NCBI GenBank assembly: GCA_014381825.1
Contig: JACNKX010000141.1
Location: 625-64,624 of the forward strand
Direction of reading: 5' to 3'
DNA: 64,000 nt
From: Planctomycetota bacterium
Lineage (GTDB): Bacteria; Planctomycetota; Planctomycetia; Pirellulales; Pirellulaceae
Positions 37,731 to 40,827 of the stretch are shown here, one piece after another (the first letter of the stretch is position 1; every line of letters starts with the position of its first letter). The notes under the pieces are model-generated. The model searched no databases. It had not been told where the DNA came from and saw only the letters and a program-made list of their open reading frames with translations. The translations under genes were made by a program, and so were the position numbers.

Positions 37731-39305
37731 ATGCTGCGCTCCTTGCCCTTCTTCGTATTACTTCTCACATCCGCGATTTCGCTCGCTGCCGATCGCCCGA
37801 ATATCGTCTTCATCTTCACAGACGATCATGCTCCGCATGCGATTGGTGCCTATGACGGTTGGCTGAAGAATGTGAATCCGACTCCCAATATCGACTCGCT
37901 GGCGCGACAAGGAATGCTGTTCCAAAACAGCTTCTGTACGAACTCGATCTGCGGGCCGAGCCGTGCGGTGATTCAGACTGGGAAGCATAGCCACATCAAC
38001 GGCTTTATGACCAACGGAAATCGTTTCGATGGCGACCAGCAAACATTTCCCAAGCTGCTACGGAAGGTCGGCTATCGCACCGCGATGATCGGCAAGTGGC
38101 ATTTAGGGACCGATCCGCAGGGCTTTGATTACTGGCGAGTGCTGCCGGGGCAGGGGGATTACTACAACCCGTTTTTCAAGACGCCGCAGGGCCGCGTTAA
38201 GATGGATGGCTATTGTACGGATCTTGTAACCGACATGGCGATCAATTGGCTGAAAGAAGAAGCCAGTTCAGACCAGCCGTTCATGTTGATGTGTCAACAC
38301 AAAGCACCACACCGCACTTGGATGCCGGCGCTGCGGCATCTCCATCTGTACGATGATATTGAGATTCCAGAACCTGCGACGTTGTTTGATAAGTGGGAAG
38401 ATAATGCCAGCCCTGCACGATTCCAAGAGATGGAAATCGACCGGCATTTGCATCTTGTCGGCGATGTCTTTGGCCCGCAACCAAGTGGCTTCGACATCAT
38501 GAAGGAAAAAACTGATCGTTCGGGGATCAAAAACCTGGCGCGGATGACGGAGGAGCAGTTGAAAGCTTGGAACGCCGCCTATGGTCCTAAGAACGAAGCG
38601 ATGCTAAAGGCGAAGCTGACGGGCAAGGATCTCATCCGCTGGAAGTACCAACGCTATATCAAGAACTACCTTCGATGCATCAAAGGCGTCGACGAGAGTG
38701 TTGGTCGGCTGATGACGTACCTGCACGACGCTGGGTTGGAAGACAACACGATCGTAATCTACTCCTCGGATCAGGGATTCTATTTGGGGGATCATGGCTG
38801 GTACGACAAGCGGTGGATGTACGAAGAGTCGTTTAAGATGCCGCTGATCGTAAAATGGCCGGGTGTTACCAAACCAAGAACGGTTAACAAGCAACTGGTT
38901 CAAAATCTCGACTACGCTGAGACTTTCCTTGATGTTGCAGGTGCGGAGGTACCCGCGGACATGCAGGGACGCTCGCTCGTTCCATTGTTCAAGGGCGAGA
39001 CGGCTGACTGGCGCGAGTCGCTGTATTATCACTACCACGAGTACCCCAGCGTCCACATGGTCGCGAAGCACTTTGGAATCCGAACAGGTCGCTACAAATT
39101 GATCCGTTTCTATCAGTTCGACGAATGGGAGTTCTACGACCTCAAAAATGATCCGGAAGAACTCACGAACCAGTACTCAAATCCCAAATACGCGGGCGTT
39201 GTCGCCAAGCTGCTGGACGACCTTAAAGGGTTGCGAACTCAGTACGCCGACGATACCGACGTGAGCGTCATGCCGGTCGAGTGGCAGAAGCAGTTTCGCC
39301 CTTAA
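37731..39305 (+). CDS. Exported type I sulfatase
   Basis: 524 residues from ATG 37731, where a signal peptide starts ([20 protein letters not shown]). The sulfatase motif C-x-P-x-R is CGPSR (Cys about 74), the cysteine that is oxidised to formylglycine. Metal ligands: [10 protein letters not shown] at the N-terminus and [13 protein letters not shown] further on. These periplasmic enzymes remove sulfate esters, typically from algal or host sulfated polysaccharides. The C-terminal [15 protein letters not shown] is the usual family ending. No formylglycine-generating enzyme gene is in this window. A structured RNA candidate begins 8 bases after the stop. Confidence 0.95.
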
Positions 39306-39312
39306 GACGTTG

Positions 39313-39447
39313 ACAGCAACCGTTTTTGGATGCTAGCGGCCTCAAGAAATTAAAAACGGCCAATCGCGGAGGGGCAGAATCCGCGAAGGGCCTTACCTGG
39401 CAGGTGGGGCAGAAACCTGCTCAGGCTTCCTTCATTCTAATTGCTGT
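39313..39447 (+). ncRNA. Candidate structured RNA with two identical-loop hairpins
   Basis: A closed multibranch fold can be drawn from four perfect or near-perfect stems. P1: ACAGCAA (39313-39319) with TTGCTGT (39441-39447). P2: CCGTTTTT (39320-39327) with AAAAACGG (39352-39359). P3: TCGCGGA/TCCGCGA (39364-39370/39380-39386). P4: CCTG-GCAGGT with ACCTGC-t-CAGG (39396-39405/39415-39425). P3 and P4 have different stem sequences but the same nine-base loop, GGGGCAGAA. It starts 8 bases after the sulfatase stop and could be a 3' UTR element, an independent small RNA or a far-upstream leader of the desaturase gene. Strand is assumed. I do not match it to a named family. Confidence 0.55.
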
Positions 39448-39750
39448 TGCAGTGTCTTCAACGGTAAAGCGACGGAAATATCGATGACTTTTTCGATTTC
39501 GCCCTAGATTCCGCAAACCTCCGTCACAAGTTACTCAAACCTGGTAACTCAATTAACCGATAGAGTTCATTGGGAGTGTGCCGGCTACTAAACACATTCG
39601 CTGGCGAAATCCACAGAAACCGCTTGGCGCCGAAGGCCGAATGCAGCGACTTCGCTCTATTCGCCAAAAGAGTTCGGAGTTATGTTATGCCTCCGATTCT
39701 GGTGTCGCATTTCGTGGGCGTCGCCACCCTTTCATGGATGAAAGACGTCG
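39448..39750. other. 303-base spacer upstream of the desaturase
   Basis: Apart from the RNA candidate before it, this holds nothing I can name. A short ATCGA/TCGAT pairing around a T-rich loop lies near 39479-39496. Short open frames here lack ribosome-binding sites. Confidence 0.35.
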
Positions 39751-40827
39751 ATGCGAGAACCTAAAGAACTCATCTTGGCTAGCAAGCCCTTTGCGTCAGA
39801 AAATCGGTTGCTTAGTTGGTGGCACCTTCTGTCGACGCTAACGATCTTCAGTGGGCTTGTGGTTCTATCGTGTAGCCCACTGCCTTTGGCGCTGCGAATT
39901 CTTATCAGCATCCTCGCGGGGCTTGTGCTGGTCCGACTGTTTATCGTGTATCACGACTTTCAGCATGGCACGATACTTCGCGGCTCGAAGATCGCTCGAG
40001 CGATTATGTTCGTCTACGGTATGATCGCGCTGAATCCGCCGAGCATTTGGAATCGCTCACACAACCATCATCACAAAAATAACGCGAAGATCTTTGGAGC
40101 GGATATCGGCTCCTATCCCATGATGACAACCGAGGCGTACGCCACCGCTTCTGCGAAGGAACGTTTTCTGTATTCGTTGGCACGCCACCCGCTGACGATC
40201 GCTTGTGGATACGTGACGATCTTTTTGTACGGCATGTGTCTGCGATCGCTGTTTATCAACCCGCGTAAACATTACGATTCGGCAATTGCCCTCGTGTCGC
40301 ATTTGACGCTCGCGGTCTGGCTCGGCTTGGTGTCCGTCGAGTGGCTAGTTCTTGGTCTTGTTGTGCCGTCGGTGATTGCCGCAGCGCTCGGGGCATACTT
40401 GTTTTACTGCCAACACAATTACCCAGATGTTAAGCTTCGCGACAGTTCCGAATGGAGTTATGTGTTTGCCGCGTTGCATTCATCCAGCTACATCAAGATG
40501 AGTCGCCTGATGCATTGGTTCTCAGGCAATATCGGCTACCATCATGTCCACCATCTGAACGCGCACATTCCGTTTTATCGCTTGCCCGAGGCGATGGCTG
40601 CGATTGAGGAGCTTCACTCACCGGGGACAACTTCGCTGCGTCCGCGTGACGTCCTCGCCTGCCTGAGCCTCAAACTCTGGGACGTCGAGCAAGATCGCCT
40701 CGTGCCGTTTCCAACGGCGAACGGACTACCGCAATGGGCGGATGCGCCTGACGTAATCGAAGACGATCTACCTGCGAAACGTCGGCCTCTGACTTCGCCA
40801 TCCCGCCGACGGCAGCCTCAGTCATAG
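39751..40827 (+). CDS. Membrane fatty acid desaturase
   Basis: 358 residues. The three histidine boxes of the di-iron desaturase family are present: HDFQH, HNHHH and, near the C-terminal third, HHVHH. Four or so membrane helices separate them (for example LRILISILAGLVLVRLFIVY, ALVSHLTLAVWLGLVSVEWL). The enzyme inserts a double bond in fatty acyl chains using O2 and reduced ferredoxin or a similar donor. It could also be a related hydroxylase. The C-terminal tail (DLPAKRRPLTSPSRRR) is basic and disordered-looking. No electron-donor gene is adjacent. Confidence 0.93.
   Translation: MREPKELILASKPFASENRLLSWWHLLSTLTIFSGLVVLSCSPLPLALRILISILAGLVLVRLFIVYHDFQHGTILRGSKIARAIMFVYGMIALNPPSIWNRSHNHHHKNNAKIFGADIGSYPMMTTEAYATASAKERFLYSLARHPLTIACGYVTIFLYGMCLRSLFINPRKHYDSAIALVSHLTLAVWLGLVSVEWLVLGLVVPSVIAAALGAYLFYCQHNYPDVKLRDSSEWSYVFAALHSSSYIKMSRLMHWFSGNIGYHHVHHLNAHIPFYRLPEAMAAIEELHSPGTTSLRPRDVLACLSLKLWDVEQDRLVPFPTANGLPQWADAPDVIEDDLPAKRRPLTSPSRRRQPQS

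Follow-up and report, generated by a model that had tools for sequence, protein, structure and literature searches.

In a 64,000-nucleotide stretch of planctomycete DNA from the family Pirellulaceae (hereafter the window), the region between a sulfatase gene and a fatty-acid desaturase gene very probably harbors a free-standing small-RNA (sRNA) gene belonging to a multicopy family, as predicted from its sequence and that of its homologues. The predicted RNA is encoded on the minus strand and comprises two hairpins presenting the same nine-base loop, the second of which is an intrinsic terminator.

Results

The sequence-only reading of this locus had singled out two hairpins, at 39364-39386 and 39396-39425, sharing an identical nine-base loop on differing stems. 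These are real: both stems pair, and the loop reads GGGGCAGAA on the plus strand at 39406-39414 (loop 1) and 39371-39379 (loop 2). With 9-nt loops, stems of at least 6 Watson-Crick pairs and a separation of at most 80 nt, the window contains one such identical-loop pair versus none in 100 dinucleotide-preserving shuffles. The larger architecture first assigned to them, a multibranch domain of about 135 bases closed by four stems, did not hold up. Folded on the plus strand, this domain gives a z-score of -1.92, with 8 of 200 shuffles equally good, and on the minus strand a score of -2.50, only modestly better; its closing stem (ACAGCAA/TTGCTGT) overlaps a minus-strand promoter and is lost in the syntenic orthologue described below. 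With a fold barely better than that of shuffled sequence and no conservation of the closing stem, the four-stem plus-strand domain was rejected. The implied strand was also wrong: the predicted RNA corresponds to the minus strand, so that both loops read UUCUGCCCC. The shuffle control that leaves the 135-nt domain unremarkable clearly distinguishes a shorter minus-strand unit (39427-39344), whose folding energy is -37.4 kcal/mol versus -21.5 kcal/mol for shuffles (z -5.07), a value reached by 0 of 200 shuffles.

This unit is preceded by a sigma70-type promoter, TTGAAG-16-TAGAAT (39461-39434, minus strand), in which the -35 hexamer (39456-39461) and the -10 hexamer (39434-39439) are separated by a 16-nt spacer and together match the consensus at 9 of 12 positions. 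It is the only promoter-like site on either strand within 39200-39800, and a -10-like hexamer is found at the same place in nearly all same-genus copies. With the 5′ end placed about 7 nt after the -10 hexamer and the 3′ end at the U tract, the predicted sRNA spans about 84 nt (39344-39427, minus strand). Its 5′ hairpin (39395-39426, minus strand) is formed by the stem GCCUG-A-GCAGGU / ACCUGCCAGGU and carries loop 1. The terminator hairpin (39358-39392, minus strand), with the stem GGCC-CU-UCGCGGA / UCCGCGA-UU-GGCC, presents the same loop, is closed by GGCC and is followed by GUUUUUAAUUUCUU; the U tract forming the tail of the intrinsic terminator (39344-39356, minus strand) reads UUUUUAAUUUCUU. 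A generic terminator scan did not report this terminator because it allows only loops of 3-8 nt. The sRNA is directed towards the 3′ end of the sulfatase gene (Pfam domains Sulfatase and SGSH_C), the desaturase gene being divergently placed; since it has its own promoter, it is predicted to be neither leader nor tail of either gene.

A syntenic orthologue in a sister species (L014), also flanked by sulfatase and desaturase genes, indicates that selection has acted on this unit: between the two species the RNA has hardly changed, most of the intergenic sequence next to it has diverged, and identity in the sulfatase gene is about 66-82% when measured in 100-nt blocks. Within the orthologue's promoter, TTGAA and TTA-AAT are kept, the -10 hexamer being TACAAT at the same position. 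Two more orthologous pairs resemble this one, and the members of one of them (L065/L092) come from different genera. When contigs were picked by the terminator alone, without promoter information, a promoter with at least 9 of 12 matches lay within 120 nt upstream in 69% of the copies versus 2.1% of control windows, and the end of the -10 hexamer fell mostly 38-47 nt before the terminator stem. A non-redundant set of 103 copies gave a promoter in 45, against 25 of 874 controls.

Further copies were recovered in the window's own genome and genus with the loop-pair pattern and a DNA search; pattern matches at L016, L017 and L019 proved to be chance or tandem-repeat matches and were excluded. Aligned in the minus-strand sense, 22 copies (alignment A1) have in common the -10 box, two successive hairpins and the U tract. 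Changes on both sides occur at 11 of their 22 pairs, and the covariation score of 0.212, compared with 0.096 for shuffled alignments, is reached by 0 of 500 shuffles and is destroyed by sliding the partner columns. Of 196 relatives searched with a covariance model (R1), 86 gave matches; the window's genome has 7 copies, and two sister species have 13 apiece. The more distant copies usually bear CUGCCCC on the terminator hairpin only, and their 5′ hairpin varies. A model of the terminator hairpin alone (R2) matches 26 of 40 close relatives, finding 8 copies in the genome of the window and 15 in either sister species. Under strict filters it matches 125 of 296 genomes sampled from Pirellulales; as more than half of the sampled genomes lack a match under these filters, some members of the order may have no copy.

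Covariation was also assessed in 31 divergent terminator copies, which align without gaps over 52 columns (alignment A2). Compensatory changes affect 13 of 13 pairs, the score is 0.751 versus 0.215 for shuffles (0 of 500 reaching it), and shifting the partner by 1-3 columns collapses the signal. The aligned copies consist of a GC-rich hairpin and a U tract, as expected of an intrinsic terminator. The loop core CUGCCCC is present in 31 of 31 copies, an invariance partly favored by the search because both R1 and R2 contain the loop. Natural variants nevertheless exist, CUACCCC in L084 and a decayed copy within a tandem array, and loops across the family read UUCUGCCCC with variants at positions 1-2. 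Among 57 U-run hairpins with 9-nt loops in 1.18 Mb of the window's own genome, no loop core other than CUGCCCC recurs. Twin loops like those of the window copy define a subfamily of 21 of the 103 non-redundant copies, in which more than one hairpin carries the loop and the stems have diverged; a single CUGCCCC loop is present in the remaining 82. The suggestion that the locus encodes a selected RNA fold is therefore strongly supported as regards the fold and its doubled conserved loop, by homologous copies with compensatory stem changes and a fixed loop, and is revised in anatomy and orientation.

Two further features of the copies deserve mention. Two siblings in the window's own genome, L070 (contig C182) and L114 (C87), differ strongly in their 5′ part and keep the terminator loop core; these 5′ parts may specify separate functions. 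Across distant copies, the A2 columns following the U run tend towards UUUCUUG(G) or AUGCGC/UUGCGC.

The taxonomic range of the family is narrow. Among 84,980 species genomes, a degenerate terminator pattern retrieved 44 contigs, 43 of which are titled as planctomycetes, including Pirellulales, Pirellulaceae, Thermoguttaceae, Blastopirellula and Rhodopirellula. The sole other title, a Candidatus Nealsonbacteria contig that carries the sRNA (L179, JABMRB010000267.1), is probably a mis-binned planctomycete contig, because it has the same M20-peptidase neighbor as planctomycete loci. Readable model matches from outside the order in a phylum-wide sample were ordinary terminators without the loop, and viral contigs gave no match. 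Judged from these searches and the contig titles, the sRNA family appears to be restricted to the order Pirellulales; the sequence of G128 coincides with that of a named Pirellulales contig.

Neighboring genes differ between copies. One site recurs, between a divergent M20 peptidase gene and the complex I genes nuoA-nuoB; it is occupied in the window's genome on contig C227 (L118/L245; G000 C227, 86976-88138) and at other loci including L055, L182, L201 and L207, and is possibly the ancestral site of the family. A second recurring hairpin, approximately CUCGGC...GCCGGGC followed by a U-rich stretch, was observed about 450-490 nt upstream of the nuoB match (L227, L228, L230, L231, L244 and L250) and may represent a separate nuo leader attenuator. 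Tandem arrays of the sRNA gene also occur: L071 (1440-2690), which shares overlapping sequence with JAIMBC010000044.1 (loci L189 and L198), contains within about 1.3 kb four intact sRNA genes, each with a promoter-like site, and one decayed copy with the loop CTGCTACTG.

Discussion

Based on the above data, we propose that these genes encode a family of trans-acting sRNAs that pair with other RNAs through the CUGCCCC loop. The housekeeping polymerase would produce a stable RNA of about 80 nt presenting one or two C-rich loops, and the CUGCCCC loop, at the tip of the terminator hairpin, would be its working part. This loop could serve as a base-pairing site for GGGGCAG-bearing RNAs, engaged by a loop-first contact like that of RepG or the CCUCCUCCC-loop sRNAs of Rhizobiales but without Hfq or ProQ, and extra loops and extra gene copies may provide a higher dose or redundancy. 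We infer from the sequence features that the RNA is transcribed, stable and active in trans. Taken as a whole, this explanation has, in our judgment, a slightly better than even chance of being correct, and the odds that the role of the loop is base pairing rather than protein binding are likewise even or slightly better.

GGGGCAG occurs 4 times near 812 predicted starts of the window's own genome against 6.5 expected, in a weak test that sampled roughly 13% of the genome and relied on crude start calls; its sub-words are likewise not enriched there, and in the sampled DNA as a whole the motif is below expectation (88 versus 124). Broad antisense targeting of start regions or ribosome-binding sites through the CUGCCCC loop is thus unsupported by this weak test, and we have set it aside. 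No rRNA was found in the own-genome assembly. Hfq was detected in 0 of 40 relatives and ProQ in 0 of 20 genomes, with E. coli positive in both controls, although very divergent homologues could escape such searches. Two options for the loop deserve serious consideration: a small number of specific RNA targets, or a protein partner.

The second of these options retains the same sRNA gene and assigns to the CUGCCCC loop the binding of a protein, the RNAs acting as sponges or scaffolds for an RNA-binding protein. We regard it as possible, with perhaps one chance in three. It would account for the invariance of seven bases in many families of the order although the stems vary freely, for the two loops per RNA in one subfamily and for the many copies per genome and tandem arrays; the lack of GGGGCAG enrichment near gene starts also keeps it in consideration. 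CsrB and RsmZ are sponge RNAs of this kind, which titrate CsrA via repeated GGA hairpin loops. They resemble our family in repeating a fixed loop motif in sRNA hairpins, but the CUGCCCC-family loops contain no GGA and most members carry one fixed loop; 82 of 103 copies with a single CUGCCCC loop are unlike typical sponges. Moreover, we found no candidate protein, and where C-rich loops have been described in sRNAs, they usually serve for pairing (PMC3927594, PMC8295292). A more far-reaching version, which we put forward tentatively and consider rather unlikely, is an order-wide sRNA regulon operating without Hfq and ProQ, in which a dedicated RNA-binding protein would recognize the CUGCCCC terminator loop. 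If true, many otherwise unrelated sRNAs would share one adapter loop, and a loop-specific sRNA chaperone or sponge system would be at work.

It is improbable that the element is no more than a favored intrinsic terminator, or an attenuator acting in cis on genes such as nuoA, with a loop kept for termination or antitermination. Its hairpin and U tract do form a terminator, and around a dozen copies, including one in the window's genome, precede nuoA/nuoB by roughly 120-600 nt and point the same way. However, only some one in four of 30 nuoB loci has a linked sRNA copy and the neighbors of other copies are unrelated, so that the nuo linkage does not establish a cis-attenuator. The nearest gene downstream runs forward in 64 cases and in reverse in 41, the window copy is directed towards the sulfatase gene's 3′ end, and the neighbors of its paralogues differ. 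A generic terminator hairpin is rejected because the element's own promoter and 5′ hairpin travel along at fixed spacing, and because those matches outside the order that could be read are ordinary terminators lacking the loop.

Still less probable is that the family represents a mobile element or a REP/MITE-like repeat, with hairpins recognized as DNA and an incidental resemblance to a promoter and terminator. Such a repeat would be dispersed, multicopy, hairpin-rich and sometimes tandem, as the family is, but it is disfavored by the roughly 30-fold promoter enrichment at near-fixed spacing, by orthologues occupying the same locus across species (for L065/L092, across genera), and by the confinement of similarity between most paralogues to the unit running from promoter to U tract; viral contigs, in addition, are without matches. 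Chance inverted repeats with a coincidentally shared loop, a reading favored only by the modest z-score of the 135-nt domain, are refuted for practical purposes by the homologues, covariation, promoter, terminator and orthologue conservation.

The proposed pairing sRNAs have relatives in kind among described systems. The sequence-only reading knew of no RNA family with this loop, and Rfam agrees: at the curated gathering score there was no match for the window or for 13 distant homologous loci, and at E values up to 10 nothing relevant appeared. The open-licence PMC literature yielded no paper describing a CUGCCCC-loop sRNA family, which is apparently undescribed. The closest parallel is offered by the trans-encoded SmelA075/SmelA099-type sRNAs of Rhizobiales, which carry repeated CCUCCUCCC loops on highly diverged stems (PMC3927594). 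As in the present family, several hairpins of one sRNA share a C-rich loop on diverged stems and the RNAs are widespread in a single order; there, however, the loop is the anti-Shine-Dalgarno CCUCCUCCC, whereas here it is CUGCCCC, in another phylum and on the terminator hairpin. RepG of Helicobacter pylori is likewise an intergenic sRNA with a C/U-rich terminator loop, which is its active site and binds a G-repeat of the tlpB leader by base pairing (PMC8295292); we infer a similar active-site role for the C-rich terminator loop here, in a family that is multicopy and belongs to another phylum, whereas RepG has been described as one conserved sRNA. Homologous siblings within one genome are also found in Rhodobacter sphaeroides as CcsR1-4, but these four sRNAs are processed from the ccaF1 3′ UTR and bind Hfq (PMC8307010), whereas each of the present genes comes with a promoter and none of the 40 relatives yielded an Hfq match. 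The Rhodopirellula-1 motif (Weinberg 2010) is similar in being a partly planctomycete RNA candidate and is set apart by description only, as it occurs also in Proteobacteria, is probably cis-regulatory and is ambiguous as an RNA (PMC2864571).

Catalogued sRNAs are few for the PVC group as a whole, one recent count listing 8 distinct annotated ones (PMC9029176). The kind of sRNA predicted here is known; what is new is the loop, the host lineage and a setting in which the usual chaperones were not detected. A fixed loop on free stems would thereby recur in another phylum, with a loop other than the anti-Shine-Dalgarno sequence, and a multicopy fixed-loop family with its own promoters and syntenic orthologues would offer a concrete handle on riboregulation in bacteria without detected Hfq or ProQ.
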